A stretch of 64,000 nucleotides of DNA from Desulfobulbaceae bacterium (GCA_020444175.1 JAHLLM010000016.1:1-64000), one strand, 5' to 3'. Shown: positions 31,578-52,865, numbered from the stretch's first letter. A program made the numbers and translations. Notes: generated by a model from the sequence alone, not told the origin.

Positions 31578-31604
31578 ACAACTTAGGGATTGAGGAAATA
31601 TATC

Positions 31605-32981
31605 ATGGCACCCTATCAAATTCTACTCATGAAGGGACGTTCTTTGACAGGAAACCTTGTCAAAGGGCTCTTATCCTCACTCAAGATAGAATTAACCATG
31701 ACGCAGGGCCTTCACAATAATCTCGAACAAATCTTGATGAGGAAGAAACCGGATCTCGTCATTGTTGACAGTCATAACATTCGACATGATCTTGAGAAAC
31801 TGAACAAATGCCTTGGGATGCGAAGCTGCAACCACAAATCGACTCCCTTTATATTTGTTGGCTCAGACATATCAGAAAGAGACAGAAGCTTCTTATTTGA
31901 TATGGGAGCTTCAGCATATATTTTAAATGACGAGGTCAATAAACGCTTAAAAAAAGTGGTGCATCAAACATTGAATCACGCGTCTTTTTGCCGGGAGAGA
32001 TTAATCCTCGTAACAGACAATTCAGCTTTGGTTCGTAAATTTATCCGCCAAGGCCTGGAAAAGCATTATTTCCAGGTTGTAACTGCGGAAAACGGCAGGC
32101 AGGCTCTGTCCATGCTGGCCGACATCGAACCGGATCTCATACTGAGCGCCATTGAAATGCCGGTTATGGATGGTTTTACCTTTTGCGAGGCTCTTCAGGC
32201 CGATTCTACATGGTGCCAAATACCGTTTGTGGTCATGAGCGCCCGCGAAAAACGGGCTGATTTCCGTCGCATGATCAACCTGGGAGCAACGTCTTATATT
32301 GTCAAACCATTTTCCATAGAGGAACTCTCCTGTCTCATTGAAAACATCCTTTGCAATCAATTCCACCGGCTGCAGCAGGAAAAAAAACATCTGCGATCAG
32401 AAAAGAAAACCCTGCTGGCAACGATTACCAGTCTGGTTTCCGCCCTGGAGGCCAGGGACTCCTATACCCGAGGCCACTCATTGTCGGTGGCCAAACTGTC
32501 TGCGGATATGCTGAAAATAGCCGGTGGCAGTCAAAAAGATATCAGACGCATATACATGGCAGGCACTCTGCACGATATTGGAAAAATAGGCATCCGTGAC
32601 CACCTTTTGCTTAAACCGGGGAAGCTGACCAAAAATGAATTCGATATTGTCATGAAACATCCCGGTATTGGCGCCCACATTTTGTCGCCCATTCAAAGTC
32701 TATCCGATCTCATCCCCTTGGTCGAACAGCACCATGAGCGATTCGACGGCAAGGGCTATCCCAAGGGAATCCGTAAAGATGCTATCCATCCCTGGGCCAG
32801 ACTCACCTCCGTGGCCGACACCTATGACGCACTGACAAGTAACCGCCCTTATCGACCGGCATTGCAAAAGGAAAAAGCACTGCAGATTATTGATGATGAA
32901 CGCGGCAGGCAACTCTGTCCTGATTCCGTTGAACTCTTTTTCAGCTGGCTCAACAAAGTAAGCTACAAGGAGGAATTATGA
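31605..32981 (+). CDS. Two-receiver HD-GYP protein, putative c-di-GMP phosphodiesterase
   Basis: The 458-residue protein should hydrolyse cyclic di-GMP. It has a degenerate receiver-like domain (about 1-125), a second receiver (about 130-250) and an HD-GYP domain (about 270-455) with 'HDIGKIGI', 'HHERFDGKGYPKG' and 'DTYDALTS', all intact. In the second receiver the acceptor strand reads 'DLILSAIEMPVMDG', with Ala182 where Asp should be, while 'YIVKPF' keeps the Lys. Signalling through it is therefore probably not by normal phosphorylation. AGGAAA before ATG 31605 favours this start over TTG 31590. It overlaps cheW by 4 bases. Confidence 0.9.
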   Translation: MAPYQILLMKGRSLTGNLVKGLLSSLKIELTMTQGLHNNLEQILMRKKPDLVIVDSHNIRHDLEKLNKCLGMRSCNHKSTPFIFVGSDISERDRSFLFDMGASAYILNDEVNKRLKKVVHQTLNHASFCRERLILVTDNSALVRKFIRQGLEKHYFQVVTAENGRQALSMLADIEPDLILSAIEMPVMDGFTFCEALQADSTWCQIPFVVMSAREKRADFRRMINLGATSYIVKPFSIEELSCLIENILCNQFHRLQQEKKHLRSEKKTLLATITSLVSALEARDSYTRGHSLSVAKLSADMLKIAGGSQKDIRRIYMAGTLHDIGKIGIRDHLLLKPGKLTKNEFDIVMKHPGIGAHILSPIQSLSDLIPLVEQHHERFDGKGYPKGIRKDAIHPWARLTSVADTYDALTSNRPYRPALQKEKALQIIDDERGRQLCPDSVELFFSWLNKVSYKEEL

Positions 32982-33469: not shown

Positions 33470-33590
33470 CGAACTCTCAAAAAGTCCGGAAACTGACCAT
33501 CCGCCAAGGCAATATCAACAAGTTACACACGTTCCGGCGGCGGTTGAGTGGATTTTTACGAAACCGCCGGAGTTTGACGTTTTCATAATA
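33467..33590 (-). repeat. 113-bp repeat family, inverted copy between cheW and receptor gene
   Basis: Reverse complement matches the unit at 9482-9594 over most of its length (GGTTTCGTAAAAA, CTCAACCGCCGCCG, GTAACTTGTTGATATT, GGCGGATGGTCAG) with scattered changes. It begins within the cheW stop region and ends just before the receptor ribosome site. It may attenuate or separate the two genes. Confidence 0.7.
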
Positions 33591-33604
33591 AAGGAGAAAG
33601 TGTC

Positions 33605-35851
33605 ATGAAATGGAAGAATATGAAAGTCTACCAGAAATTATCAGTGGGATTTGGTTCTGTCATCCTGTTACTTCTCTTTTTAAGCGGAGACAGTATTTTT
33701 ACTTTCAACAAACTTCAGAAACTTAATGATGAAGTAGTGGAGCATAACAAAGAGGCTGCCTTTATGCTTGAAAAAGAGATCGACCACTTGAAGTGGATGG
33801 CGGCAGTCAATGAGCTTTTCGGAAATGATCAGCTAACTTCACTCAATGTGCAGACAGATGATCATAAATGCGGCCTCGGTGCCTGGATATACAGCGATGA
33901 AACCAAGAAGATGGCGGCAGAGGATCCTGATTTTGCAGCTCAGTTAGAAGCAATAAAGGAACCGCATAAAAATCTCCACGAATCAGCCATACAGATCAAA
34001 CAAAATTATACCGCCTTTGATCTCAGTCTCCAGAATCTTATAGCTGCACGATGGATAGATCATCTGAACTGGATCAAAAACCTGCAGAACTCCCTGCAGA
34101 CAAAGTCTTCTTTTTCAGGCGGACTGGATCCCCATCAGTGTGCTTTCGGGCAATGGTTTTACGCATACCAGGGAAATAATCCGACCTTCATCGCTCTCTT
34201 GGGGGAGTGGGAGAAACCCCATAATCGCCTGCATAAATCAGGGGAAGCGATTGTCAAGCTCATGGAACAAGGAAACATCGCCGGAGCCCGGGAAATGTAC
34301 AAGAATGAAACTCTGGTTGCCCTTGCCGACCTTGAGACAAGATACACCAAAACCCTGGACTGGATTGATGCACAGGCCAATGGCCAGAAAAAAGCCAGAG
34401 CAATTTTCGCCTCGATCAGCCAGCCGGCTGCCAATGAAACCCAGCAGCACCTTACACGCTTAAAAGAATATTTCGACAAGGAAGTGGCCCTTTTTACCGA
34501 GCACTCCAAAGCATCGAATGAGAGCAGCAGTCAAATGATCTTGCTCGTGAGTTGTTTTGCTTTGCTGACAGGAGTTTTTGTCGCCTGGATTATCACCCGT
34601 TCCATTACCATTCCAATTAGAAAAACCATGGAATGCGGGCTGTTGATGGCTCAAGGTAATTTCAGCCGGAAAATTGCTGTCAATCAAACAGACGAGTTAG
34701 GACAGATGGGCCAGGCCCTGAATCAAATGATCGAAAATGTGCAGGATAAGATTACGGTTGCTGAAAGGGTTGCAAATGGCGATCTGACCGCAGAGGCGAA
34801 TATAGCTTCGGATGAGGACCAGTTAGGGATTGCTTTCCAAAAAATGGTAACAGATCTCACACGAACGGTGGGCGAAATCCAACACAGCGCCGGCAATTTG
34901 GCCGGTTCTTCCCAGGAGATGTCCGCTGTGGCCAGTCAGCTGGGCAGCAGTGCAGAGGAAATGTCGAGCCAGGCTAATAATGTTGCCGGAGCCAGTGAAC
35001 AGATGACCCAGAACATGACGACCATGGCATCATCAACTGAGGAAATGAGTTCTAATATTACTATTATGGCGTCAAGAGCAGAAGAAATTTCGCAAAGCAT
35101 GGAAACAGTTGCAGCCGCTGTCGAAGAAATGAATGCCTCTATTCAAGAAATATCATCCAGAGCCCGGGAGGGAGTTCAGGTTTCCAACCAGGCTGAAGAG
35201 ATGTCCGTGTCCGCCACAACGACGATGCGTTCTCTTGGGGAATCTGCCACGGAGATCGGGCAGGTCACAGAGGTTATTAAAAGGATTGCCGAACAGACCA
35301 ATTTGCTTGCTCTGAATGCTACCATTGAAGCTGCTTCCGCAGGTGAAGCAGGAAAAGGGTTTGCCGTCGTTGCCAATGAAATTAAGGAACTTGCCAACCA
35401 GTCCGCTCAGGCAGCTGAGGATATCGCTAACCGCATTGGCGGCGTACAGGGGAATACGGAAAATGCAGTGGAGGTGATCAGTAAGGTAGCTGAAATCATA
35501 GCACAGTTGAAACAGGCGACAACTACCATTAACCTGGCTGTTGATGAGCAGGGACGCACTGTGAGAGAAATCGCCGAAAATATTAATGAGGTGAATATAG
35601 GAACCAGGGATATTGCTTCTTCTGTTTCCGAGATGGCGACAGGGGCGGCAGATGTCTCCAAAAACACCGGTGAAACGTCAATGGCTGTGGAAGACGTATC
35701 TGTCAATATCCATCAAGTAAGTCAGGCCGCTCAGGAAACCAGCAATGGAGCCCAACAGATCAGCAGCGCATCGGAAGAATTGACCGCTATTGCGGATGCG
35801 CTGAATGAACTTGTCTCCACTTTTAAGGTGCGTATTTTTAAAGAGGCATAG
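33605..35851 (+). CDS. Chemoreceptor with two periplasmic CZB zinc-binding domains
   Basis: The 748-residue methyl-accepting chemotaxis protein has membrane helix 1 (about 13-30), a periplasmic region with two tandem CZB-type modules, helix 2 (about 310-333), HAMP and a HAMP-like linker (to about 430), and the signalling hairpin (about 440-745, tip 'AGKGFAVVANEIKELANQSA'). CZB module 1 has 'DHLKW', 'DHKCGLGAW' and 'EPHKNLH'; module 2 has 'DHLNW', 'PHQCAFGQW' and 'KPHNRLH', so the His/Cys zinc ligands are present in both. There is no C-terminal CheR-binding pentapeptide. AAAGGAG precedes the start. It should sense zinc or a zinc-modulated oxidant signal and drive the adjacent CheA. Confidence 0.9.
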   Translation: MKWKNMKVYQKLSVGFGSVILLLLFLSGDSIFTFNKLQKLNDEVVEHNKEAAFMLEKEIDHLKWMAAVNELFGNDQLTSLNVQTDDHKCGLGAWIYSDETKKMAAEDPDFAAQLEAIKEPHKNLHESAIQIKQNYTAFDLSLQNLIAARWIDHLNWIKNLQNSLQTKSSFSGGLDPHQCAFGQWFYAYQGNNPTFIALLGEWEKPHNRLHKSGEAIVKLMEQGNIAGAREMYKNETLVALADLETRYTKTLDWIDAQANGQKKARAIFASISQPAANETQQHLTRLKEYFDKEVALFTEHSKASNESSSQMILLVSCFALLTGVFVAWIITRSITIPIRKTMECGLLMAQGNFSRKIAVNQTDELGQMGQALNQMIENVQDKITVAERVANGDLTAEANIASDEDQLGIAFQKMVTDLTRTVGEIQHSAGNLAGSSQEMSAVASQLGSSAEEMSSQANNVAGASEQMTQNMTTMASSTEEMSSNITIMASRAEEISQSMETVAAAVEEMNASIQEISSRAREGVQVSNQAEEMSVSATTTMRSLGESATEIGQVTEVIKRIAEQTNLLALNATIEAASAGEAGKGFAVVANEIKELANQSAQAAEDIANRIGGVQGNTENAVEVISKVAEIIAQLKQATTTINLAVDEQGRTVREIAENINEVNIGTRDIASSVSEMATGAADVSKNTGETSMAVEDVSVNIHQVSQAAQETSNGAQQISSASEELTAIADALNELVSTFKVRIFKEA

Positions 35852-36535: not shown

Positions 36536-36903
36536 AAACATGAACAACACCGAAAAAGGAAGACATTTCGTGTAAAACTTCAGTTTCAGGCCTGTAAGCG
36601 TATTATAACAATGCAATGATGTCACTCCCCCATGAAGCCATGGCCTATCGAATTTTTACCCCTAAACCATCCAAAACACGTTGACACGTTCCTGCAGAGA
36701 GGAATTGGCACAAGCAAAGCAGGTGGTTAATCAATATCTTCCAGCTTCCCTCAACCTTACTCCGGACTTTCCCCATTACTGCTTGACTAGGGAAATTCAT
36801 TTTTATTATAACTAGTTGTAGAGCATTGCAACTGTCGCTGATTTTGTTCTTCCATCTGAAACATGAATACAACATATCTATCGGGGCTCACACAAAACAG
36901 CCT
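36536..36903. other. Promoter region of the STAS-cellulose operon
   Basis: This 368-bp gap contains the sigma-54-like site at 36706-36721 and no supported gene. Short minus-strand frames here have no start signals. Confidence 0.5.
36706..36721 (+). promoter_or_regulatory. Sigma-54-like promoter of the STAS-bcs operon
   Basis: TGGCACAAGCAAAGCA has a perfect TGGCAC -24 block and GG-N10-GC spacing, about 200 bp before the STAS gene. The -12 block is AAGCA rather than TTGCA. Confidence 0.5.
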
Positions 36904-37245
36904 ATGTTGACGAAAATTGAAAATAAAGACGACATTTTTATTGTTACCTTGAATGAAGAACGGCTTGATGCTGCATTGGCCCCGGAATTTGAAGGCAAGA
37001 TGCAAGAGTGGATCCAGAGCGGCAAAACTGCCATTCTGCTTGATCTCACACCCGTAGATTTTATCGATTCAACAGGTCTCGGCACCCTTGTTTCCAGCCT
37101 GAAAGCCATTGATGGCAGCGGGCAACTTGTCCTCTGCGGTATCAGCTTGAAAATTATGAGTTTGTTTAAGCTGACTCGAATGGATCGGGTGTTTACCATT
37201 TTCCCAAACCGAGATGAGGCCCTGGCTTCCTTTCTTCCCTCATAA
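36904..37245 (+). CDS. STAS-domain anti-sigma factor antagonist
   Basis: The 113-residue STAS protein follows the RsbV/SpoIIAA pattern: 'DDIFIVTLNEERLDA', then 'VDFIDSTGLGTLVSSLKAI' with the phospho-acceptor Ser56, then 'LVLCGISLKIMSLFKLTRMDRVF'. In partner switching the dephosphorylated form binds its kinase and frees the kinase's other partner. The adjacent HATPase protein begins 17 bp downstream. A longer frame from TTG 36826 is possible but ATG 36904 fits the domain start. No strong ribosome site is seen. Confidence 0.9.
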   Translation: MLTKIENKDDIFIVTLNEERLDAALAPEFEGKMQEWIQSGKTAILLDLTPVDFIDSTGLGTLVSSLKAIDGSGQLVLCGISLKIMSLFKLTRMDRVFTIFPNRDEALASFLPS

Positions 37246-37262
37246 TCTCAAAACCTTTTCTT

Positions 37263-37745
37263 ATGGTTTTTGATAATCCGGCAAACACACTCCATCTGTC
37301 AATTATGAGCACCATTGATGAAGTGCGTCGACTGGGACTTGCCGTGCGCCGCATGTGCAGGAAGACTCCCTTGGACGAGACCGGAACCTATCTCGTTGAA
37401 CTCTCGGTTGTCGAGGCGGCCAACAACATAATCAAACATGCCTACAGGGACAAAGAGAACCAGGAGCTCGACCTTGAAATCCATGTTGATCAAGACAAAA
37501 TGCAACTGATTTTAAGGGACAATGGCGCCCCCATGCTGGAGTTCAGCCAGCCTTCCTGCCCGGTTTACGACCCTAACTGCATACAGAGTCTTCCTGAAGG
37601 GAAAATGGGCACCTTTCTTATCCATACCATCATGGACCAGGTTGAATACGCTTCTGAAAATGGCCGCAATGTGATGACCATGACAAAGTCCTTTGCAGAT
37701 CGTGCTGGGGACGAAGCCCAGGAATCTTCTTATGAACTCAAATAA
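37263..37745 (+). CDS. RsbW-like anti-sigma regulatory serine kinase
   Basis: The 160-residue protein has the HATPase_c_2 fold of RsbW/SpoIIAB: N-box 'VVEAANNIIKHAYRD', G1-like 'LRDNGAPM' and 'GKMGTFLIHTIMDQVEY'. It should phosphorylate the STAS protein at Ser56 and switch partners. No sigma factor is encoded nearby, so the third partner is unknown. Its 3' end overlaps bcsA by 14 bases, which couples a partner-switch kinase directly to cellulose synthase. Confidence 0.9.
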   Translation: MVFDNPANTLHLSIMSTIDEVRRLGLAVRRMCRKTPLDETGTYLVELSVVEAANNIIKHAYRDKENQELDLEIHVDQDKMQLILRDNGAPMLEFSQPSCPVYDPNCIQSLPEGKMGTFLIHTIMDQVEYASENGRNVMTMTKSFADRAGDEAQESSYELK

Positions 37746-39999
37746 GATTCCTCTCCCCCTTCTGCTCCTTTTCGCCATTTTATGTGCGAGTGTCTTCTGG
37801 ATGGGAGGCACGGCCTACCTCTCACCTGAAAAACAGATGATTTTTGCCTGGCTGATCGTCGGTTTTCTTATTGTGGGGCAGAGACTTTTTTCCTTCAATG
37901 CTTCCCTGCTTCGTCTCATTCTCATGGTGCTCACCCTTTTTCTCGGAGTTCGCTACTGCGTCTTTCGTTTCACCCAGACCCTGTCCTATACGAGCTTTAT
38001 AGAATTTTTCTTTGTGGTGCTGCTGTTTGTTACCGAACTCTATGCCCTCACCATCCAGCTGCTTGGCATGTTTGTCATGGCAAACCCCATTGATCGCCCC
38101 CTGCAGCCCATTGACCTCGACGATCCGAACCTGCCCACGGTTGATGTTTTGATCCCCACCTATAATGAAACGGAACAGATGGTGGCAATCACCGCAGGCG
38201 CCGCCACCTTGATGAATTACCCCAAAGAAAAACTCAATATTTATATTCTTGATGACGGCGGCACCGTACAGAAACGCACCGATCCTGATCCCCAAAAGGC
38301 TGCCGCAGCCAAGCAGCGTCATGAGACATTAAAGGTTCTGGCGGAATTTCTGGAGGTAGAGTACCGCACACGGGAAAAAAATATTTCAGCAAAGGCCGGC
38401 AATATCAACCAGGCCCTTTATGGCGATGATGACGACCAGCCCAGACCCAATGGCGAGCTTGTTCTTATTCTTGACTGCGACCACGTTCCCACCAGGGACC
38501 TGCTGGAAAATACCGTATCGCACTTTCAAAAAGACGAAAAACTCTTCCTCGTCCAGACTCCTCATTTTTTCATTAATCCTGACCCCATTGAAAGAAACCT
38601 GGGCACCTTTAAAAATATTCCCGGCGAAAACGAGGTGTTTTTCGGGGCAGTACACCTTGGCCTTGATTTCTGGAACACCTCCTACTTCTGCGGTTCAGCT
38701 GCCGTGCTCAAACGCAGATACCTGGATGAAGCAGGAGGAGTGCTGGGAGAAACCATCACGGAAGACGCGGAAACCGCCCTTTTTCTGCATGGCAAGGGCT
38801 ATAACAGCGTCTATGTCAACCGCCCCATGGTGTGCGGCCTGTCTCCCGAAACCTTTGACGACTTCATTGTGCAGCGCAATCGCTGGGCCCAGGGCATGAT
38901 TCAGATCATGCTGCTCAAAAACCCCCTGACCATGAAAGGGCTATCCGTTGTGCAGAAAATCTGCTACTGCAATTTAACCATTTACTGGTTTTTCGGCCTG
39001 GCCCGCTGCATGTTTTTCATTGCCCCTTTCCTGTATATATTTTTCGGCCTGCAGATATATCAGGCCTCCCTGTTCCAGTGTCTGGCCTACCCCATCCCCT
39101 ATGTGGCGGCCTCCATGATTTTGACCAATTATGTCTTCGGCTCCGTGCGCCACCCCTTTTTCTCGGAATTGTATGAAATGGCCCAGAGTCTCTACAACAT
39201 ACCTGCGTTTTTCAGTGTTCTTCTGCGGCCCCGCGCTCCAAAGTTTAAAGTAACGCCAAAGGACAAGAGTCTGACTGCTGATTTCCTGAGCCCCATCGCC
39301 TACCCGTTTTATTTCTTGCTGGTCCTGTCCGTTGCCATGTACCCGGTGGCCCTGGTGCGCCTGCTGATGAATCCCCTGGCCTGGAACGGTGTTGTCATCT
39401 GCCTTGTCTGGGGATCGTTCAACTTCCTCCTCCTCATGCTCTGCCTGGGCATTGTCTGGGAAAGAAAGCAGCTTCGTAAAAAACACCGCATTCCTTTGGA
39501 AGAAGCAGTGACCGTCAAACAGAAAAGCGCAGGCGGCGAAGAACAAATTCATGCCCACACCGCGGATATCTCAGAGGAAGGCATAGGCCTCGTCCTGCCG
39601 CCCTCTGTTGTTCTGCAACCAGGTGAACGCATTGCCATTGATGCCGAAGACAGTACAGGTAAAAAATATACCCTGGCCGCAGAAGTTCTCCGTACCAGCC
39701 AAAGGGAGAACGAAATGTATGTGGGATGTCAATTTATCTATGACGATGAGCTGACTTTTCTTTATCTGACAAGCTACATATACGGAGACAGCCAGCGCTG
39801 GGCTGATTTTCTGCAGAAACGCCGGGCAAACAAGGTTTCTCTGGGTCAGGGACTGGTGGAAGTACTTTCTCTGGGACTGAAAGGGACATATCACCATTTT
39901 AAAGGGTTATCAAAACTAGCCGTTCCGGGGCTGAAAAAACAATATATGACAGGTGGAGTATGGAACAGACTACGAAGCGTTTTTCAGGCACGTCCCTGA
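37732..39999 (+). CDS. bcsA: Cellulose synthase catalytic subunit (BcsA) with PilZ
   Basis: The 755-residue inner-membrane enzyme polymerises UDP-glucose into beta-1,4-glucan and extrudes it. Glycosyltransferase-2 motifs are present: 'VLIPTYNE', 'ILDDGG', 'LILDCDHVP' (DxD-type), 'ITEDAETAL' (TED) and 'QRNRWAQGM' (QxxRW). There are several membrane helices at both ends. The C-terminal PilZ domain keeps RxxxR as 'RKKHR' and DxSxxG as 'DISEEG', so c-di-GMP activation is expected. An in-frame extension to 37693 lies inside the kinase gene; AGGAA before ATG 37732 fits better. It overlaps bcsB by 40 bases. Confidence 0.96.
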   Translation: MNSNKIPLPLLLLFAILCASVFWMGGTAYLSPEKQMIFAWLIVGFLIVGQRLFSFNASLLRLILMVLTLFLGVRYCVFRFTQTLSYTSFIEFFFVVLLFVTELYALTIQLLGMFVMANPIDRPLQPIDLDDPNLPTVDVLIPTYNETEQMVAITAGAATLMNYPKEKLNIYILDDGGTVQKRTDPDPQKAAAAKQRHETLKVLAEFLEVEYRTREKNISAKAGNINQALYGDDDDQPRPNGELVLILDCDHVPTRDLLENTVSHFQKDEKLFLVQTPHFFINPDPIERNLGTFKNIPGENEVFFGAVHLGLDFWNTSYFCGSAAVLKRRYLDEAGGVLGETITEDAETALFLHGKGYNSVYVNRPMVCGLSPETFDDFIVQRNRWAQGMIQIMLLKNPLTMKGLSVVQKICYCNLTIYWFFGLARCMFFIAPFLYIFFGLQIYQASLFQCLAYPIPYVAASMILTNYVFGSVRHPFFSELYEMAQSLYNIPAFFSVLLRPRAPKFKVTPKDKSLTADFLSPIAYPFYFLLVLSVAMYPVALVRLLMNPLAWNGVVICLVWGSFNFLLLMLCLGIVWERKQLRKKHRIPLEEAVTVKQKSAGGEEQIHAHTADISEEGIGLVLPPSVVLQPGERIAIDAEDSTGKKYTLAAEVLRTSQRENEMYVGCQFIYDDELTFLYLTSYIYGDSQRWADFLQKRRANKVSLGQGLVEVLSLGLKGTYHHFKGLSKLAVPGLKKQYMTGGVWNRLRSVFQARP

Positions 40000-42248
40000 T
40001 ATTCTTTCTCGTTGCATTTATTTATTGCTTAGCAGGGAATTGCGGGCAGGCGAGGGCTCTCATGTCGTCCGAGTCGGCGTTGACCAAATTCAACACCCCG
40101 GGAACCGTCAAGCTCGAAGGAGAAAGGGGAAGCTACACGGTGAGCATTCCTCTCCCTGACCGATGGCTCGTTAAAGGGGCAACACTCCGTCTGGCCTATA
40201 CAAATTCCACGGCGCTCCTGAAAAAACGGTCGCGTATCATGGTCCACGTCAACGGCAGTCCGGTTGCCCAGGCGGCTCTGCTGCCTGAGTCGCCAGAGGG
40301 CATTATGACCGTACAGCTCCCTGCCCGTCTTCTCAAAACCGGCTACAACAACCTGTCTTTTCTGGTCAGCCAGAATTTCAGCGACAGCGGCTGTGTTCCG
40401 GCCAGTCTGCCTGAAGTATGGACATCGCTTAACCTCTTTGAATCTTCCCTGGAACTCTCCTATGAACTGCGGGATGTTCCCCTCTCCCTCAACTCCATAT
40501 CCTCCTTTCTCTTTGACTCCAGAATGTACACGGAGAATCAAGTGCATCTCATTGTGGAAAATTTATCCACGGAGAACACGAAGCTTGCTTCCCTTGCCGC
40601 ATCAGGAGTGGCGCTACGTTTTGATTATCGTCCCGTTCATTTCAGCCTGGGCCGTGACCTGCAGCAGGGTGTGGATAATATCATTATCGGTTCTTCCGCA
40701 TTCCTGCAATCGGTTCTGGACAGGGTCAAGGTTCCCATGCCTTCAGGGAATATGGGCATCCTGCATCTGCCATCATACAGGGAAAACGATCTCAAGGAAA
40801 AACAGACATTCTATGATGCGCAGCACGGGTTGCTTTACTTGACCGGTCAAAATCCTGAAAAGATTTTGCAGGCGGCAGAGGCCTTTTCGCTCCTCTCTCT
40901 TCCACTGCAGAGCAAGGCCTCTGCCGACATCGAGGCTGTGGCGGTCCCCGAGATAACGAGGTATTCAGGCAAACAAAGAGTGGCTCCCGGCAAAAAATAT
41001 CGCTTCAGGGAACTTGGCTTTCCAACCACGTCCTTTCAGGGTTTTAACCCAGGCAACAGGGGATTTTCATTTTCAATGCCCACCAGTCTGCTGCTCATGG
41101 AGAACCGCTCCCTTGCCCTTTCCTTTAATCTTTCCTATGCCTCCAACATGAGGGAGGACTCTTCTTTAAAAATCCTGCTTAACGGCCGTTTTGTCTCCTC
41201 CATTCCGGTGGGTGATGTCATGGGAGGGCGCTACCAGGGCTATAAGATCGATCTGCCTCTTTTCTACGTCAAGCCGGGCTTAAACACCCTGGAGTTCCAT
41301 GCCGTACTGACACCTTTGCATACGGGCGACTGCGAAATGCTGCAAACAGACCATCTGGCCCTGACTGTTTTTGATAACTCAATCATGAGCGTTCCCGACG
41401 TGCCCCACTGGGCCGAGTTGCCGAACCTTGAATTCCTCATGGATGACGGTTTCCCCGTGGCCCGTTATCCGGATTTTCGCGAAACAGTACTGCTGCTGAC
41501 AGACAAGACAAACGAGACGGCAACCGCTGCAGTCAATCTGATAGCCCTGCTCAGCCAGAAAAACGGCGTGCCGCCTTTCCGGCTGACAATCTCTGACACT
41601 GTTCCTGCTGACGCGGACAAAGAATTGCTGGTGGTGGGAGCAAGGGAGAGTCTGCCTGAGAAAATTATCAATGCCTCGCAGTTATCTCCCGCAATTCAAT
41701 TTCCGGTAAACGGCAGACTTGCGGGAAGCAAAGAAGAAAACAACTGGCTTGACCGTCAGAAAGAGCGTTTTTTGGCAACTTTAGAGCCCAAGCAGTCTTT
41801 TCCTCCTGACAGGGCAGGAATTACGACCGGATATGCGACGTCTCCCCGCACGGTGCTGCTTACGGAGTTTGAGTCTCCTTTCAAAGCAATGCGCTCAATT
41901 GTCCTTTTTACCGGCAACAGCGGCAAAGACCTGGTGGGCGGAGTCAATGCACTCTGGGATCACGCCCTGCGCTCAAAAATCAAAGGCGATAGGGTCTTGA
42001 TTGATTTTGGCCAAACAGAGCCCACGCTTGTCTGGGATAAAACCGGAGCCCCCTATTATTCCGGCAATATCAGCTCAATGAACTGGCTGGCAAATCTTGT
42101 CAATTCCTATCCCAAGGCGTTTTTTGCAATTATGCTTGCCGTCCTTCTGCTGACCGCTTTCATCCTGCTCCTCTTCTTGAAACGCTGGCGGCACAAACGT
42201 TTTAGCAACGACACGAAACCGACTGAAAATGACAGCAATGCAGACTGA
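39960..42248 (+). CDS. bcsB: Cellulose synthase periplasmic subunit BcsB
   Basis: The 762-residue protein has a signal peptide (MEQTTKRF..., hydrophobic to about residue 30), a large periplasmic beta-rich region with carbohydrate-binding-like jelly-roll modules (about 45-330 and 350-620), and a C-terminal membrane anchor (about 722-744, 'FFAIMLAVLLLTAFILLLFL') followed by basic residues. BcsB anchors and guides the glucan from BcsA. Family segments include 'LRLAYTNSTALLKKRSRIMVHVNG' cut here at 'MVHVNGSPVAQAAL' and 'NSIMSVPDVPHWAELPNL'. GGTGGAG precedes the start. It overlaps bcsA and bcsZ. Confidence 0.93.
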   Translation: MEQTTKRFSGTSLIFFLVAFIYCLAGNCGQARALMSSESALTKFNTPGTVKLEGERGSYTVSIPLPDRWLVKGATLRLAYTNSTALLKKRSRIMVHVNGSPVAQAALLPESPEGIMTVQLPARLLKTGYNNLSFLVSQNFSDSGCVPASLPEVWTSLNLFESSLELSYELRDVPLSLNSISSFLFDSRMYTENQVHLIVENLSTENTKLASLAASGVALRFDYRPVHFSLGRDLQQGVDNIIIGSSAFLQSVLDRVKVPMPSGNMGILHLPSYRENDLKEKQTFYDAQHGLLYLTGQNPEKILQAAEAFSLLSLPLQSKASADIEAVAVPEITRYSGKQRVAPGKKYRFRELGFPTTSFQGFNPGNRGFSFSMPTSLLLMENRSLALSFNLSYASNMREDSSLKILLNGRFVSSIPVGDVMGGRYQGYKIDLPLFYVKPGLNTLEFHAVLTPLHTGDCEMLQTDHLALTVFDNSIMSVPDVPHWAELPNLEFLMDDGFPVARYPDFRETVLLLTDKTNETATAAVNLIALLSQKNGVPPFRLTISDTVPADADKELLVVGARESLPEKIINASQLSPAIQFPVNGRLAGSKEENNWLDRQKERFLATLEPKQSFPPDRAGITTGYATSPRTVLLTEFESPFKAMRSIVLFTGNSGKDLVGGVNALWDHALRSKIKGDRVLIDFGQTEPTLVWDKTGAPYYSGNISSMNWLANLVNSYPKAFFAIMLAVLLLTAFILLLFLKRWRHKRFSNDTKPTENDSNAD

Positions 42249-43287
42249 CAGGCTTTTTTTCAAATGCAGCCTGATTCTTTTTTTCTTCTGCCTGGCAACA
42301 GGTCCGTCCTGGGCAGCCGAGGCAGGCACATGGAATTTTTTCAAAGAGCATTTTGTCACCCCTGACGGACGTATCATCGACAGGGGCCGGCAGGACATGA
42401 GTCATTCCGAAGGACAGGGCTACGGGCTTCTTCTGGCCCAGGCCAGTAATGACAGGCAGGCTTTTGAACGTATCTGGTTATGGACACGAAATAACCTGCA
42501 GGTCAGGGAGGAAGACAAACTCTTTGCCTGGAGCTGGGGAAAAAGAGAGTCCGGAGAATGGTCTTTCCTTGACCGGAACAATGCAACCGACGGTGATATA
42601 TGCATAGCATACTCTCTTCTTCTTGCTGCCCGGAAATGGCAGATAAGCTCCTATAAAGCAGAGGCCCTGGCCATCATAAACAGCATGAAAGAAGAGCTGC
42701 TTGTGGAAAAATACGGTTACGCCTTTCTCCTGCCCGGGGATGACGGTTTTGTGACGGACAAGGGATTCATCTTGAACCCTGCCTATATGATTTGTTCCGC
42801 TTTCCGGCTCTTTGCCGAAGTAACCGGGGACCCCATATGGTCAAAGGTATACGGAGACGCTTTAAAAATCATCGGCGCAAGTCTCTACTCAAGCCTTATC
42901 CTGCCACCGGACTGGCTGCTCTTGACCGACAGCGGCACACACATTTCCACAGAGAAAAGTTCCGGTTTCGGATACGAGGCAATTCGGGTTTTTCTTTACC
43001 TTGCCTGGGACCACTCCCTGGCCACTGTGCCGGGTGTTGAAAAACTGTTCCATTACTATGAGGGCACAGGGCGGCTCCCCGTTTTTGTGGATCTTGTGGC
43101 AAACTCTCTTTCTCTTGACGAAGCTCCGGCCGGATTCTACGCTATTCTGGCACGGAGCGCTGAGGCAGCAAACAAAGGGAAACTGGCCAGCCGATTATGG
43201 CAAAGAGCAAAAATGAAAATTTGCGCGGAAAAAGAAAATTATTACTCCCAGATACTTTTTCTTCTCGCCAAGATAAACAGACCATGA
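42229..43287 (+). CDS. bcsZ: Periplasmic endo-beta-1,4-glucanase BcsZ (GH8)
   Basis: The 352-residue secreted cellulase has a signal peptide (cut near 'SWAAEA', about residue 30). Glycoside hydrolase family 8 marks are 'SHSEGQGYGLLLAQ' with catalytic Glu61, and 'NATDGDICIAYSLLLA' with the Asp pair near 120. It trims or edits the glucan in the periplasm and is a normal member of bcs operons. It overlaps bcsB by 20 bases and bcsC by 4, consistent with one coupled operon. Confidence 0.94.
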   Translation: MTAMQTDRLFFKCSLILFFFCLATGPSWAAEAGTWNFFKEHFVTPDGRIIDRGRQDMSHSEGQGYGLLLAQASNDRQAFERIWLWTRNNLQVREEDKLFAWSWGKRESGEWSFLDRNNATDGDICIAYSLLLAARKWQISSYKAEALAIINSMKEELLVEKYGYAFLLPGDDGFVTDKGFILNPAYMICSAFRLFAEVTGDPIWSKVYGDALKIIGASLYSSLILPPDWLLLTDSGTHISTEKSSGFGYEAIRVFLYLAWDHSLATVPGVEKLFHYYEGTGRLPVFVDLVANSLSLDEAPAGFYAILARSAEAANKGKLASRLWQRAKMKICAEKENYYSQILFLLAKINRP

Positions 43288-46247
43288 TGAAACGTATGAG
43301 TAAAAATTGCCTACCATTGTTAGCAGCTACGGTTGCCTGCGTTGCTTTGTCAACACACGCTTACCCGCAGACAGTCAAAATGGATCATCCGGCATCTTCG
43401 ACAAAAGTGGAAAGAGGCAGACAAAGCACATCTGCCGACGCACCCCAGGCCGAGTCCGCCCCTGTTGATACCGTCCGCCAATACGACATGCTGCCGCAAC
43501 TCCTGAGCCAGGCCTGGCATGAATATCAGGAACAGCGCTTTCAGGAGGCACGCGACCTATTCCTTGAGGTTGCTGAAAGTTCCAAAACAGAGAGCAGGGA
43601 TAATGCCAGGCTGGGACTGGCCTACACCTATCTCAAGCTGGATCGGCAGGACAAGGCCATTGACCTCCTGGAAAACCTGGTACGGGAGCACTACAAAACC
43701 GAGGAAACTCTGCCCGCCCTCATCAATATCCTGCTGTCCCGTGAAGAGTGGAAACGGGCTGCCGCACTCCTGCAGCAGCAGAGCGCTTCCCGCTCTGAAA
43801 AATTGAGTGCTGCCGCCGCCCGGCGCTTTCTTTATGAGCAATTCCCCGGCGACTTTGACCTGGCCGCGCGCCTGGCCTGGAGCGCATTCCGACAAAAAGA
43901 GTATGAACAGTCCACAACTCTTTTTAAAGAACTATTGAGCCGTTTCCCTGCCTCGGAAGACTATCTGCTCGGCGCTGCATTCAGCCTGCAAAAACTCGGC
44001 AAAGACGAGCAGGCCCTGCAGCAGCTTGAAAATTTTCAAGCTCCCCTGTCGGCCAAGGCCAGGAAGACACGAGATGATTTATATGTGTCCTTAAACCGGA
44101 AGGCAGCGGATGCCGAAAACCAGCAGGAAGCCCATGCCCTTTTGCAAAGAGCTGTGCAGGCCGGCTCAAAAAACCCCGTGCTTTTAGCGCACTATGGCTG
44201 GAGCTGTTATGAACGGGCAGACTATCCCTGCGCCACAGACACCTTTACCCAACTGACACAGAGCTATCCCGACAATGAGGATTATCTTCTGGGGCTCGGT
44301 TATGCACTGCAGGCATCAGGCCAAAATGAGCAGGCCATACGCCGCTTGAAAAATTTTCAGGGCACGTTGAGTAACAAAGCCAACGAACTCTTGACCAACC
44401 TTTACAGCACAGAAGGACAGCAGGCCTTTGAGGCAGGCAAGTATGAAAAGGCCAGGCATTATTTCGGGCAGGCGCTTGGCCGCACCCCCCATGATGTTGA
44501 TTTGCGCGAATCATATGGATGGGCCTGTTTCCGCCTGGAAAACTTTGGCTGCGCTCAAATGGAATTTGAGCAGCTTTTGCGTGAGAATCCCGGTACGGAA
44601 AAATATATGACAGGGCTTGTCTCTTCCCTGCAAAAGCAGGGCGAAAACAAGGAGGCCCTTGCTGTCATTGAACAGCATCCCGCTATCAGGAGTCCTGCAA
44701 TTGCTGAGCAGCAAGTCAATCTCTACCGCAGCATGGGAAACACTGCTTATAAGGAGCAGGATTTTGCCGTCGCTGAAAAATACCTGACCCGCGCCACCCA
44801 ACTTGCTCCTGATGATGAAGAAACAAAACTGCTTCTCTTGTGGACCCGCCATCACATGGGCAATTCCAGCGGCCTCATCAGTTACCTGCAGGACAACTTT
44901 GACAGCCAGGGCTCACCGGAAACGGCAAAAACCGTGATAGGTCTCCTAGAGGCCCAAGACATGAAAGAGGAAGAAAATCAGTTTCTCGAAAAACTTGCCC
45001 AGTCAGAAGACCCATCCCTTAAAATACTTGCCGCAGAGAGCATTTACCGGGAGGTGGGACCACTTGCCGCTGCCCAGGTCTATAATGCCCCTGAAACCTG
45101 CTATCAGGGATGCGATGCCGTCCAGGTTCACGCAGTGCCCTTTTTCAGAAGCAAGAAGGGTGATAACGGCTTGTCACGGCTGGATGTCTATGGAGTGAGT
45201 ACCCGGCTTGCCGTACCCTGGCCCAACGCCAATATCTGGAGTCTTCGCCTTACGCCTTTCCAACTTTCTTATGATAATGACAAGGACCAGCCGTATAGCG
45301 GTCAATATTATAAAATGTTGCAACAACCGAACATGCCTTTTCAAAAAAATGACGACACCTTTGATGTCTGGGATATCCAGGCCGGCTGGTATCATGAAGG
45401 GAGGCGCAGTTACGACCTGAGAGTCGGCATGACGCCAGAGAATGGTCCGATTGCGTCCGCGCCCACTTTTTCCCTGCATATTTCCGACAAAAAATGGAAA
45501 CTGCATTTTGAGCATCAACCGGTGAGAGAATCCGTTCTGTCCTGGATCGGCATGGAGGATCCATATAGCGACAAGGTATGGGGCAGAGTGCTGCGCTCCG
45601 GCCTTTCGGGTGGGTATTCCTTTGATCTTCCAGGACCCTACTGGCTTTATCTCGATGCCGAATATTACAGCTATAACGGCAAAGATGTTGAAGGGAATTA
45701 CTCCCTGCATTCTTCTCTCAGCACCGGCAGAACCGACCAATGGCAGATATTTAACCGATCTATTGGCGCATTTTTGAGTGCAGCAGGCTTTGACAGGAAC
45801 AGCGATTTTTATACATTTGGTCATGGAGGATATTACAGCCCTGAATTTATGCTGGTGACCGGACCCTTTGTCAGCCTGAAAACCTCGGAATGCAAAAATT
45901 TCTGGTTAAGCGGCCACCTCTCGGCAGGCTACAGCTACCGGCAAACAGAGGATGCTCCCCACTATCACCAGACACATACCGACCCATTGTCGCTATCCCG
46001 CTCCGCCTCTCATGATTTCAGCGGGGAATACCAGGGGGACAGCAGTTCCGGCATGGGAGTGAATGCCCAGCTCAAAGGCTTGATGAGGCTGAACGACAAC
46101 TGGTTCTTCGGGGGACTTGCCAGTGTGGAAAACAGTAATGACTATCTTGACTATAAGGCGGCACTGGTTTTGAGTTATTCTTTTTCAAAAAACAGGACCT
46201 TTTGCGGAACCGAACGCTTTTTTGATTCGCTTATGTCGCTTTTTTGA
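43284..46247 (+). CDS. bcsC: Cellulose export outer-membrane protein BcsC
   Basis: The 987-residue exporter has a signal peptide (MMKRMSKN..., cut near 'THAYPQ'), a periplasmic TPR superhelix (about 70-620, repeated units such as 'ARLGLAYTYLKLDRQDKAIDLL', cut here at 'AYTYLKLDRQDKAI') and a C-terminal BCSC-type beta-barrel (about 650-987). It ends in an aromatic residue ('FDSLMSLF'), typical of outer-membrane barrels. A frame open to 43197 lies inside bcsZ; ATG 43284 overlapping the bcsZ stop is the natural start. No bcsQ, bcsE, bcsG or bcsD is present nearby. Confidence 0.92.
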   Translation: MMKRMSKNCLPLLAATVACVALSTHAYPQTVKMDHPASSTKVERGRQSTSADAPQAESAPVDTVRQYDMLPQLLSQAWHEYQEQRFQEARDLFLEVAESSKTESRDNARLGLAYTYLKLDRQDKAIDLLENLVREHYKTEETLPALINILLSREEWKRAAALLQQQSASRSEKLSAAAARRFLYEQFPGDFDLAARLAWSAFRQKEYEQSTTLFKELLSRFPASEDYLLGAAFSLQKLGKDEQALQQLENFQAPLSAKARKTRDDLYVSLNRKAADAENQQEAHALLQRAVQAGSKNPVLLAHYGWSCYERADYPCATDTFTQLTQSYPDNEDYLLGLGYALQASGQNEQAIRRLKNFQGTLSNKANELLTNLYSTEGQQAFEAGKYEKARHYFGQALGRTPHDVDLRESYGWACFRLENFGCAQMEFEQLLRENPGTEKYMTGLVSSLQKQGENKEALAVIEQHPAIRSPAIAEQQVNLYRSMGNTAYKEQDFAVAEKYLTRATQLAPDDEETKLLLLWTRHHMGNSSGLISYLQDNFDSQGSPETAKTVIGLLEAQDMKEEENQFLEKLAQSEDPSLKILAAESIYREVGPLAAAQVYNAPETCYQGCDAVQVHAVPFFRSKKGDNGLSRLDVYGVSTRLAVPWPNANIWSLRLTPFQLSYDNDKDQPYSGQYYKMLQQPNMPFQKNDDTFDVWDIQAGWYHEGRRSYDLRVGMTPENGPIASAPTFSLHISDKKWKLHFEHQPVRESVLSWIGMEDPYSDKVWGRVLRSGLSGGYSFDLPGPYWLYLDAEYYSYNGKDVEGNYSLHSSLSTGRTDQWQIFNRSIGAFLSAAGFDRNSDFYTFGHGGYYSPEFMLVTGPFVSLKTSECKNFWLSGHLSAGYSYRQTEDAPHYHQTHTDPLSLSRSASHDFSGEYQGDSSSGMGVNAQLKGLMRLNDNWFFGGLASVENSNDYLDYKAALVLSYSFSKNRTFCGTERFFDSLMSLF

Positions 46248-46359
46248 TTTGAGATTCATTTCTTGTCAAATATCTTGATCTTTCCGTCGTCCGGACAACC
46301 TTTTCCGATGCTGAAAAGTAACTGCCGGTTGCATATGATATTTTTGCCCAATAAAAAAT

Positions 46360-46544
46360 GTGATTACCACTGAAACTCAGCCAGTCCTGCAGAAGGTACT
46401 GTAATGCATTAATAATTCAAAAAATACTGTCTACATAAAAGTCATTCCCGCGAAAGCGGGAATCCAGAGTAGCTGGCTCGTCCGCCTAGATTCCCGCTTT
46501 CGCGGGAATGACGTATAAAAAGGCTGAAGATGAGTGGTAATCAT
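46360..46544 (+). repeat. 185-bp structured repeat, copy 1
   Basis: Ends TGATTACCACT (46361-46371) and AGTGGTAATCA (46533-46543) are perfect inverted repeats. The interior holds GTCATTCCCGCGAAAGCGGG paired with its complement. The copy at 52634-52818 has the same length and almost the same sequence. Flanks AATAAAAAAT and AATACAAAAA match at 8 of 10 positions, a possible decayed target duplication. Confidence 0.85.
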
Positions 46545-46582
46545 AATACAAAAAAAGACCGGTTTCATTCACAGGACTTGGC

Positions 46583-47785
46583 ATGGATTCCAACCCGGAA
46601 AAGACAAAACTGCTGGTAATTGACGACAATCCGGTCGACCGCAAGCTGATCAAATCCTTTTTTGAACAGGATGATTTTTTGCTTTTTGAAGCTGACGAAG
46701 GCAAAACCGGACTTGCCATGGCCATGCAGCATATGCCGGATATCATCCTTCTTGATATCCTGATGCCCGGCATGGATGGTTTGACCATCTGCACCAGGTT
46801 AAAAATGGTTGAATTGACCAGGTCGATCCCGGTCATTCTCATATCCTCCACCAAAGAACTGCTTGTTAAGATCAGGGGGCTTGAAATCGGGGCGGTCGAT
46901 TTCATCACCAAGCCGCCGATCAAGGATGAAGTGCGTGCTCGGGTCCGAGCCCATCTGAAGATAGCTAGGCTCACCAAGTCTCTTGAAAAGGCCAACAGAA
47001 TACTGGTCCGCAAGCAGAAGAAAATTGAACTGGATCTGCAGGCTGCGGCTGAGATTCAAAAAAATCTCTTACCCGGAAAACTTCCAGACTGTCCGGTAAA
47101 ATTTTCCTGGCATTTTGAGCCAAGTTCAAAAATCGGCGGCGATATTTTTAATATCCATCGGCTTGATGAACATCACATTGGTATTTACATCATTGATGTC
47201 AGCGGTCATGGGGTCCCGGCGGCCATGATAACAGCCTTTGTCTCCCAGGCCATGTCCCCCAGTAACAGCTTGGTGAAGCGGCAGATTTCTTCTGCGCCAT
47301 TTTATAAAATTGTGCAACCGGTTGACTTGATAAAAAAAATAGAACAAGAGTTTCCCATTGAAAGATTCAATCGTTATATCACGATGAATTATCTTGTGCT
47401 TAACTTTCAAAGCGGAGATTTCAACTATTGCTGCGCCGGCCATCCCCCGGCTGTTCTTGTCCGTCGGCAAGGGGAACCGGAGCTGCTCGATACAGGCGGT
47501 GCACTCATCGGCCTCGGGGACATGGCGCCGCCCTTGCAGCAGGGAGCTGGTCATATTGATAGCGGAGACAGGTTGTATTTCTACACGGATGGCATCATTG
47601 AACACGAAAACAGTGTGGGTGAGCAATTCGGCATCCCAAGGTTGGTTCACACTCTCATGCAGGAAAAGGAATTATCGCTCGATCACTCCATTACGGAGTT
47701 CATTGCACATTTCAAAAACTTTGAGCCAGGCAGCATTCCGATAGACGATATCAGTTTACTGGCAATAGAACTTCGCAACTCTTAG
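46583..47785 (+). CDS. Receiver-PP2C serine phosphatase (RsbU/SpoIIE-like)
   Basis: The 400-residue protein has a receiver (1-125, Asp58 in 'IILLDILMPGMDG', 'FITKPP'), a coiled linker with 'AAEIQKNLLPGKLPD' (about 155-170), and a SpoIIE-type PP2C phosphatase domain (about 170-395) with 'SSKIGGDIFNI', 'YIIDVSGHGVPAAM' and 'FYTDGIIEHEN'. It should dephosphorylate an anti-sigma antagonist, most simply the STAS protein at 36904, when its receiver is phosphorylated. It lies 335 bp after bcsC in the same direction, completing a partner-switch set around the cellulose operon. Confidence 0.92.
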   Translation: MDSNPEKTKLLVIDDNPVDRKLIKSFFEQDDFLLFEADEGKTGLAMAMQHMPDIILLDILMPGMDGLTICTRLKMVELTRSIPVILISSTKELLVKIRGLEIGAVDFITKPPIKDEVRARVRAHLKIARLTKSLEKANRILVRKQKKIELDLQAAAEIQKNLLPGKLPDCPVKFSWHFEPSSKIGGDIFNIHRLDEHHIGIYIIDVSGHGVPAAMITAFVSQAMSPSNSLVKRQISSAPFYKIVQPVDLIKKIEQEFPIERFNRYITMNYLVLNFQSGDFNYCCAGHPPAVLVRRQGEPELLDTGGALIGLGDMAPPLQQGAGHIDSGDRLYFYTDGIIEHENSVGEQFGIPRLVHTLMQEKELSLDHSITEFIAHFKNFEPGSIPIDDISLLAIELRNS

Positions 47786-48269: not shown

Positions 48270-51230
48270 ATGACTGTCAAAACAAAATCCATACTCCTGG
48301 TTACCGGAGTTATACTTACGCTCTCACTCTTCTATACCTTTCACCATATATCATCTCATTCGAGACATATTTCCTTCTGCAATAAACAAAAGGAGATAAA
48401 TCTCTACAATATGCTGCTGAAAACGCAGGAATCATACGTCTCCATTTTTGATTCCTGGCTGGCAAATTTCATTCTCTTCAACCGTCCGCAAATAGAGGCA
48501 TTTGCACATCGGGATCGGGAAAAACTTTACGAACTCACTCTCCCCAAATTTCAGTCATTACAGAATATCGAAGCATACTCGTACCATATGCATTTTCATT
48601 TACCGGATGGACGTTCCTTTCTCAGGATGCATAAACCTGAAAATTTCGGTGACGATTTACGCCAAATCAGACCGGCTGTACAGGAGGTGCAGAGAACCAA
48701 GCTCCCCATGTCCGGTTATGAAATTGGCGTCCACGGAGCCTTCTATCGTGTCATTCACCCGGTAATCTACAAGGATGAGTATATAGGCGCTCTTGAAGTC
48801 GGCATTAAGGCTGATGAAATTGTTGCCATGCTTGGCCCCAAAACAGGCATGAAAACAGCCATTTTCTTCTCAACTCCCCTCTGGGAGAAGGCCTCTGGAA
48901 ATACACAACCCAGCAAGGAATTCGGCAAATACACTATTGTCGAAGATACACCACATATTATCGATTTATTACCTGAAAATTTCGAACTGGATGAGAAAAT
49001 ACGGAAACTTGAAGCCGGCAAACTGAGCTTCAGCGTATATACGCCACATGTTCTATCAAACTGCTTTCATGAATCCATTGGTGGGATTATCGCGCTTCAT
49101 GATCTGAGCGATGACGTTTCTGCCCGGGAAAAATTTATCATCCAGTCTGTCGTTATCACGTCTTCCCTGGCAGTGATCTGCATCATCTTCCTGTCCATAA
49201 GCTTCCAGAAACTCATTGGCAATCTTGAAAATGCAAAGGAAACCCAGGACAAGCTCATCGGCAAACTGAACAGGGAGATCGAAACCAGGACCGAGGCTGA
49301 AAAGGCATTGCTGCAAAGCGAAAAACAACAGCGTCATATTTTAAACAGTCTCTCGGACACCATTTTTCTGCTTGACTGCAATTTTACAGTCAAATGGGTT
49401 AATAAATCAGCCCAGGATATGTTTCCCATTTCCCTGAACCAAAAATGCCTTCTTTGCATCCGAGAACAGAACAGACTTCCAGATGAAAACTGTCTGTGCA
49501 GAAAAGCATACAGGAACAAATCGATACAGACAGGCATAACGCATCTTCCTCCGCTTTCGACCATCTCAGCAGAAAGTTCATGGGAAACCATTTCTATTCC
49601 ACAGCTCGATGAGCAGGAAAATGTAACTGGTGTCCTTGTTGTCTTACGCAACATCACAAACCGACTTCAGGCGGAAAAACAGGTCAATGATTTAAACAGG
49701 CAGAACCGTCTCCTGCTGGAAGCAGCCGGAGAGGGAATTTACGGGGTTGATCTCGAAGGCAACACCACCTTTATGAATCCGGCGGCAGTGCGAATGACCG
49801 GTTTCTCCGAGGAAGAGATGATCGGCAACCACCAACATGACCTTCTGCACCATACTAAAATTGACGGCAGTCATTATCCATCACAGGAATGCCCCGTTTA
49901 TGCCAGTATGAAAGACAAAAAAACCTATACCGCCATGGACGAGCTGTTCTGGAGAAAAGACGGCAGCAGCTTTCCTGTTGAGTATGTTGCCGCACCTGTC
50001 CTGGAAAATGACGAGGTGATCGGTGCAGTTGTTCTGTTCAGCGACATCACCGAACGAAAAACCCTTGAAAGCCAACTGCTGCATTCCCAGAAAATGGAAG
50101 CGGTCGGTCGGCTTACAGGCGGCATTTCACATGATTTTAATAATCTTTTAACTACCATCCTCGGGTACAGCGAGATCCTTCTTTTTCAAAAGGAAAACTT
50201 CACAAAGGACGCCACAGAAAAGATCAAGATGATTCACAGGGCCGGCAAGATGGCGGCGGCACTGACCAGGCAGCTTCTGGCTTTCAGCCGCAAGCAGGTC
50301 CTTGAGATACAGCCTATAAACGTCTGCGACATCCTTAAAAAGCTGGCGAATATGCTGCGCAGGGTTATTGGAGAAGATATCATTCTCGAATTACAATACG
50401 AATGTCCTAGCTGCAGCATCCTGGCTGATACCGGGCAGTTTGAACAAATTATCATGAATATCGCCATAAACGCCAAGGATGCCATGCCAAATGGCGGGCG
50501 GCTGAACATTACCACTAAAATAATCGAAGTCACGGATGAAAAGCTCACCGACTTTGCGGATATCAAACCCGGGCCATATGTTTATATCAGCATAAGCGAC
50601 AGCGGGGAAGGAATGTCCAAAGAGACCATGGAGCTCATATTTGAACCGTTTTTCACCACCAAGGAAAAAGGCAAAGGCACCGGTCTCGGTCTTGCCACGG
50701 TTTACGGTATAATCAATCAACATAATGGCTATATTACCGTAAACAGCTCACCCGGCCAGGGAACCACTTTCCAAATTTACTTTCCACTTGCGGAAACTCA
50801 AGCAGACCAGAAAATCATTCCAATCTCCACCATACTGCCGACAGGCTCGGAAACCATCATGGTTGTTGATGATGAAACGGATATCCGCTCATTTATAAGC
50901 GACACTCTGGAACCTCTTGGATACACTGTCCTTGAAGCCGGCAATGGCGATGAAGCCCTCCGTTCCTGCCAGGACCATCCACTGGATATCGACCTTCTCA
51001 TAACAGACGTTGTCATGCCCGGCATGAGTGGCAAGGAGCTTGCCTACCGGCTTATGTCGCTTCAACCTGGAATAAAAACTCTCTTCATTTCAGGCTATCC
51101 GGATGAACAGCTATCCGACAGCAATATCCTCAAGGCGGGAATCAACTTCCTGCCCAAACCCCTTACTCCCCAAAAAGTAGCAAAAAAGGTCAGAAAGATA
51201 CTCAACAATACTGAAGATTATTCCTCATAA
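48270..51230 (+). CDS. Membrane hybrid histidine kinase: Cache-PAS-PAS-HisKA-HATPase-REC
   Basis: The 986-residue kinase has membrane helix 1 (about 7-25), a periplasmic double-Cache-like domain (about 30-285) with '[20 protein letters not shown]' type sequence (dCache_3-like), helix 2 (about 293-312), a coiled coil, PAS 1 (about 350-465) with an unusual Cys-rich loop ('CLLCIREQN', 'ENCLCRKAY'), PAS 2 (about 475-600), HisKA with His621 ('[19 protein letters not shown]'), HATPase ('[10 protein letters not shown]', '[14 protein letters not shown]') and a receiver ('[13 protein letters not shown]'). The HDFNN class often works with phosphorelays. The Cys pairs in PAS 1 could bind metal or sense redox. 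Confidence 0.9.
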
Positions 51231-52617: not shown

Positions 52618-52633
52618 GCAATTAAATTCTTTT

Positions 52634-52818
52634 GTGATTACCACTGAAACTCAGCCAGTCTTGCAGCAGGTACTGTAATGCATTAATAATTCAAAAAATA
52701 CTGTCTCCACAAAAGTCATTCCCGCGAAAGCGGGAATCCAGAATAGCTGGCTAGTCCGCCTAGATTCCCGCCTTCGCGGGAATGACGTATAAAAAGGCTG
52801 AAGATGAGTGGTAATCAT
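52634..52818 (+). repeat. 185-bp structured repeat, copy 2 with 10-bp target duplication
   Basis: Same length and nearly the same sequence as 46360-46544, with ends TGATTACCACT and AGTGGTAATCA and an internal GTCATTCCCGCGAAAGCGGG palindrome pair. A perfect 10-bp direct repeat AAATTCTTTT flanks it (52624-52633 and 52819-52828). This is good evidence of transposition-like insertion. Confidence 0.9.
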
Positions 52819-52865
52819 AAATTCTTTTTTCTCACAATTCATAATTTCTTGATATCTCAGCAGGT

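Follow-up and report, generated by a model that had tools for sequence, protein, structure and literature searches.

In partner-switching modules, an RsbW-type kinase phosphorylates the serine of a DSTG motif, and a SpoIIE-type PP2C phosphatase takes the phosphate off. Cellulose synthase is the textbook example of an enzyme gated by c-di-GMP. In the SiaABCD system of Pseudomonas aeruginosa the unphosphorylated partner binds its target (PMC8457831), and the same paper describes unphosphorylated STAS or STAS-like partners that bind and activate diguanylate cyclases in the pairs SiaC-SiaD, HsbA-HsbD and BgrV-BgrR. In Vibrio fischeri, it is the unphosphorylated form of the STAS protein SypA that promotes biofilm (PMC8256260, PMC4646962). 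The literature that we searched, mostly outside subscription journals, held no case of partner switching or of a STAS protein joined to cellulose synthase or to PilZ.

Here we describe such a locus in a 64,000-nucleotide stretch of DNA from a Desulfobulbaceae bacterium (JAHLLM010000016.1:1-64000), called the window below, from whose first letter positions are counted. Both of its parts, the partner-switch module and the bcsABZC cluster, are of a standard kind; their combination is a new variant. Seven genes for STAS, kinase, BcsA, BcsB, BcsZ, BcsC and receiver-PP2C lie on one strand (plus) at 36904-47785. The first encodes a STAS-only switch protein of 113 aa (36904..37245; Pfam STAS, 3.8e-19) and the second an RsbW/SpoIIAB-type serine kinase of 160 aa (37263..37745; Pfam HATPase_c_2, 6.9e-23). 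The 755-aa catalytic subunit of cellulose synthase is encoded by bcsA (37732..39999), which combines GT2 and PilZ domains and scores 798 bits, above the cut-off, against NCBIfam CelA TIGR03030; its PilZ domain occupies residues 580-683 (39469..39780; Pfam PilZ, 1.2e-11). Then come bcsB (39960..42248; Pfam BcsB, 4.6e-111), bcsZ for a GH8 endoglucanase (42238..43287; Pfam Glyco_hydro_8, 3.2e-59) and bcsC for a TPR/outer-membrane export protein (43284..46247; Pfam BCSC_C, 2e-53), the bcsZ/bcsC junction reading as a 4-bp overlap, so that the components of a Bcs operon are all present. The last gene (46583..47785) encodes a 400-aa phosphatase made of a receiver and a SpoIIE-type PP2C domain (Pfam Response_reg, 3.4e-25; SpoIIE, 1e-34). 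Gene and Pfam calls bear out the initial annotation, which had described STAS, an RsbW-like kinase and bcsA, B, Z and C packed together with a receiver-PP2C protein after them. Its 14-bp overlap of kinase and bcsA is exact (kinase stop at 37745, bcsA ATG at 37732), and its left boundary of 36706 moves to 36904, where the first gene begins, or to an in-frame TTG at 36826.

The three switch proteins have all the features of an RsbV-RsbW-RsbU-type module. The predicted phosphoacceptor of the STAS protein is Ser56, as previously annotated; it sits in a DSTG motif whose serine is kept in all bcs-linked and PilZ-fused STAS relatives. Kinase residues E51, N55, D86, G88 and G116 are invariant in 11 relatives, the N and G box residues are present, and the closest solved structure is RsbW 6m36 (E 2.5e-20). 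Asp58 and Lys110 of the phosphatase receiver are retained in 9 relatives, as are the acidic PP2C motifs GGD, DVSGHG, TDG and DD (GGD187, D205, D336, D388/D389). On the cellulose side, BcsA has invariant GT2 catalytic motifs and an intact PilZ motif for c-di-GMP (R582xxxR586 and D612xS614xxG617, residues invariant).

The sole wide gap in the operon, of 335 bp, separates bcsC from the phosphatase gene and is mostly filled by a MITE-like dispersed repeat of about 200 bp (46353..46555), leaving about 130 bp when the repeat is subtracted. Of 159 candidate copies of this repeat seen genome-wide, we scored 40, including the operon copy; the others are 89-97% identical. A second copy lies in the window at 52633-52820, and there are short inverted repeats inside the repeat. 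An Rfam scan of 30000-52000 matched no riboswitch or other known RNA element, and scans for promoter and terminator consensus sequences came out near the shuffled expectation and were uninformative. Downstream, a hybrid histidine kinase (dCache-PAS-HisKA-HATPase-receiver by Pfam; 48270..51230, plus strand) is by its position a possible input to the phosphatase receiver, and the nearest candidate for it. Just upstream is a chemosensory cluster (28557-35851) with a CheA-like protein of 1006 aa, carrying two CheW domains and a receiver, a receiver-HD protein, CheW and an MCP. The receiver-HD protein (31602..32981, plus strand; PF13487, Pfam HD_5 1.1e-30, Response_reg 6.1e-26) is a possible c-di-GMP phosphodiesterase, and the cluster could possibly feed into c-di-GMP or into the switch.

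Conservation of gene order, which the initial annotation had named as a check, was found in two genomes of the same taxonomic order and another family. One, G017, has the identical seven-gene order in a single run (L057), and the other, G051, has the identical seven genes split over two contigs (L062 and L070) whose boundary falls within bcsA; they are separate species, with kinases 84% and phosphatases 79% identical. In both, 4-bp overlaps occur at STAS/kinase, kinase/bcsA and bcsC/phosphatase, the first two reading ATGA and the third joining the phosphatase start to the bcsC stop, and the kinase gene overlaps bcsA in all three bcs-linked genomes. The split layout, with STAS and kinase before bcsA and the phosphatase after bcsC, persists though the BcsA proteins are only 55-61% identical. 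Since the same seven-gene order recurs in two genomes of another family, the arrangement in the window is not a product of chance.

The coupling is nevertheless rare. BcsA occurs in 8 of 258 genomes of the whole order, three of which have the switch and two (G091 and G600) do not, while the contig ends at or near bcsA in the remaining three, which were left unscored; the bcs-linked switch is limited to these three genomes, which belong to two genera. Of 395 genomes sampled from the phylum, 14 had BcsA, and a switch lay within 1.5 kb of it only in the window, some of these 14 loci showing less than 1 kb upstream. A survey of 80 named BcsA loci drawn from many phyla, with flanks of up to 10 kb either way, found neither STAS nor kinase at any of them; the sequence before bcsA extends for at least 1 kb in 73, and a control run re-found BcsA in the surveyed loci. 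A wide distribution of the coupling was consequently rejected. BcsA of the window groups with those of G017 and G051 in a clade supported at 100/100, and the nearest outgroups in the tree (L078 and L074) both lack the switch; the simplest history would be that the switch was gained once, by the ancestor of this clade. That close BcsA relatives do without it, and that the coupling is rare, speaks against a switch aimed at BcsA.

A search with the kinase also found paralogous bcs-free modules in one genus (g14), consisting of a STAS protein of about 270 aa, a kinase and mostly a receiver-PP2C protein, which is 36-43% identical to that of the window and was not found in module L064. The long STAS protein ends in a PilZ domain that makes up its C-terminal half: all five proteins tested match PF07238 above the cut-off, and by alignment all 11 bcs-free modules (L058-L069, e.g. 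L058:7785-8603 and L061:1727-2533) encode a STAS-PilZ fusion in which RxxxR and [DN]xSxxG are kept. In a tree of STAS, kinase and phosphatase, the three bcs-linked and 11 fusion modules form one clade (100/100), apart from all 16 other modules tested, including three others of the window's genome. Every member of this clade ties STAS to PilZ, either its own in the fusion or that of BcsA next door. In the best tree the bcs-linked switches branch first and are paraphyletic, which suggests that a bcs-linked module may have been ancestral to the fusion, but the earliest branchings are not firmly ordered, and forcing the three together was not rejected (AU p 0.127). Descent of the fused PilZ from that of BcsA found no support, the best match to a BcsA having E 0.047. 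The full fusion was seen, within the phylum sample, in genus g14 only. The fusion modules sit among varied, mostly metabolic genes and therefore look like self-contained signalling units, and the fused PilZ might feed a signal into STAS instead of standing in for the STAS target. In L192, what looked like an RR-PP2C-STAS fusion was discarded, as its two matches fall in different reading frames.

Glucan enzymes recur beside related STAS genes. At each of 30 related STAS loci of the phylum sample, we mechanically took the nearest neighbours outside the module, four at most, which gave 110; of these, 104 were kept and scanned against Pfam and NCBIfam. The six left out follow STAS in L232 and L246 and are partly TPR proteins that had been scanned before. 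Among the 104 neighbours, glycogen phosphorylase was the most frequent family, with eight genes at eight of the 30 loci (L219, L221, L222, L223, L238, L240, L241 and L249; five family codes), followed by TPR with four. At these eight loci the STAS gene directly adjoins the phosphorylase gene, often with kinase and PP2C, an arrangement for which the literature searched held no report. By our own estimate one to a few glycogen phosphorylase genes are expected per genome, and against that estimate its presence at 8 of 30 loci, which are not fully independent and fall under five family codes, is far above chance. A UDPGP-type nucleotidyltransferase was found at two further STAS loci, and two GlgC-like genes at one locus. 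Another polysaccharide locus was seen at L226:1662-7101, where STAS, kinase and Hpt genes adjoin genes for GH2, a BcsA-like GT2 protein without a PilZ match, and DUF3131. We tentatively raise the possibility, to which we give well under an even chance, of a branch of partner switching that acts directly on glucan enzymes: STAS would set glycogen phosphorylase, UDP- and ADP-glucose pyrophosphorylases and, here, cellulose synthase, directing glucose to storage or matrix, and one lineage would have fused STAS to PilZ into a c-di-GMP-gated switch protein.

Sigma factors are the classical output of such modules, and the initial annotation rightly reported none nearby. There is none on the contig, and the six sigma-70 region-2 matches in the genome, all on other contigs, correspond to RpoD, an RpoD-like paralogue of 443 aa, RpoH, FliA and two ECF factors. 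The RpoD-like protein (L205:1015-2343) scores below the RpoD cut-off. No sigma factor of the genome passes the SigB/SigF/SigG cut-off, and the classical partner-switch target is therefore missing.

Together, this evidence gives good support to the view that the switch is dedicated to cellulose synthesis, which we hold to be very probable. The connection to cellulose and not to sigma, as originally proposed, is strongly supported by the seven-gene order, the STAS-PilZ fusions, the lack of a SigB/F/G-type sigma factor and the glucan neighbours; a direct target among the Bcs proteins or c-di-GMP enzymes, proposed with it, is something that we infer. In the mechanism that we propose, the kinase would phosphorylate STAS on Ser56, as its family does, and the receiver-PP2C phosphatase would dephosphorylate it, being itself set by a two-component histidine kinase, a control that its receiver implies. 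This chemistry is taken from knowledge of the families, and the key residues are present. By likeness to SypA and SiaC, the unphosphorylated STAS protein would be the active form. Once free, it would bind cellulose synthase, most likely at the cytoplasmic PilZ/gating region of BcsA, and so set the readiness of c-di-GMP to turn BcsA on; BcsA at or near its PilZ gate is the putative target because of the STAS-PilZ fusions and the conserved operon. In the sister modules, the tie between STAS and PilZ would be kept, with or without BcsA, through a fused PilZ of the c-di-GMP type. We would give about an even chance to such direct, sigma-independent, post-translational action of STAS binding on BcsA and its c-di-GMP gate, a reading drawn from sequence. 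The suggestion in the initial annotation of a phosphorylation layer over PilZ/c-di-GMP control fares likewise: the fusions and the gene order strongly support the layer, and phosphorylation itself we infer.

Cellulose synthase might also be reached indirectly, if STAS acted as a switch on some diguanylate cyclase or phosphodiesterase whose gene lies elsewhere, with the synthase following through c-di-GMP, as with SiaABC-SiaD and HsbA-HsbD. The three characterised non-sigma outputs named in PMC8457831 do act on diguanylate cyclases, and the window has the gene of the receiver-HD protein 4 kb upstream of the operon. Yet the seven-gene operon contains no gene for either kind of enzyme in any of the three genomes, and what the sister modules join to STAS is a receptor domain for c-di-GMP rather than an enzyme of its turnover; we think this route rather unlikely. 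A different division of labour would make the kinase the effector, with free kinase blocking BcsA or BcsB and STAS merely titrating it. This is the canonical logic by which RsbW and SpoIIAB bind their targets, and it is the kinase gene that overlaps bcsA in all three genomes, but in the sister modules PilZ is attached to STAS and not to the kinase, and STAS is the binder in the known non-sigma systems (PMC8457831, PMC8256260), which leaves this arrangement quite improbable.

Direct action of STAS on BcsA has also to be set against a classical anti-sigma system in which the kinase holds FliA or the RpoD-like 443-aa paralogue and the bcs genes are mere neighbours or members of the regulon. Both sigma factors are present, the nearest solved relative of the kinase is RsbW, and an RsbW-like kinase from an isoamylase-containing operon of Synechocystis controls SigC (PMC12329169). 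No sigma gene, however, is on the contig or above the SigB/F/G cut-off in the genome, sigma factors are absent from the 25 commonest neighbour families of related STAS loci, and the compact, ordered set of seven genes and the joining of STAS to PilZ indicate c-di-GMP and glucan targets; we regard a distant sigma target as unlikely even with FliA and the paralogue elsewhere in the genome. Finally, a mobile or randomly inserted signalling cassette without any role in cellulose synthesis would fit the rarity of the coupling (0/80 bcs loci outside this group) and a genome rich in dispersed repeats, but a split arrangement with translational overlaps, kept at 55-61% BcsA identity, already disfavours accidental co-location, and we consider it highly improbable.

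If the proposed mechanism is true, a co-encoded Ser-phosphorylation switch would be a second, independently wired input to cellulose synthase, and the locus an example of partner switching directed at an enzyme of biosynthesis. To our knowledge, the Hsb and Bgr switches are not embedded in a polysaccharide synthase operon. The HptB-HsbR-HsbA-HsbD system of P. aeruginosa and BgrSTUWV-BgrR of Sinorhizobium resemble the window in that STAS phosphorylation gates a c-di-GMP protein, but HsbA and BgrV target diguanylate cyclases (as cited in PMC8457831), where the window's target would be BcsA. SiaABCD likewise has a phosphatase, a kinase and a STAS-like partner, with c-di-GMP and biofilm, not sigma, as output (PMC8457831). 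SiaC, however, is a DUF1987 protein, whereas the window STAS matches PF01740/PF13466 only; SiaABCD has its diguanylate cyclase SiaD in its own operon, and neither cellulose synthase nor a PilZ fusion, whereas no GGDEF match was found among the scanned neighbours of the window operon. Judged by its different STAS family and an operon free of cyclase genes, the window module is not a SiaABCD system.

SypA and SypE of V. fischeri (PMC8256260, PMC4646962) share with the window a STAS protein with Ser56, control by kinase and phosphatase, and genes within a polysaccharide locus; unlike the window, SypE unites kinase and phosphatase in one protein, and the locus makes SYP, not cellulose, and has no BcsA-PilZ neighbour. 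The natural STAS-PilZ fusions provide a testable candidate for the binding partner of unphosphorylated SypA and proteins like it, a question still open in the field. The icfG cluster of Synechocystis (PMC12329169) also has genes for PP2C, kinase and STAS next to that of isoamylase, a glucan enzyme, with a link to carbon metabolism, but SigC is the reported target of its kinase, Slr1861, it has no cellulose synthase, and the kinship is at the family level. With RsbU-RsbV-RsbW and SpoIIE-SpoIIAA-SpoIIAB the window shares all three protein families, with catalytic and phosphoacceptor motifs kept; it differs from them in that the contig encodes no cognate sigma factor and the genome none above the SigB/F/G cut-off, in the receiver domain of its phosphatase, and in carrying cellulose synthase genes where the sigma gene would be.
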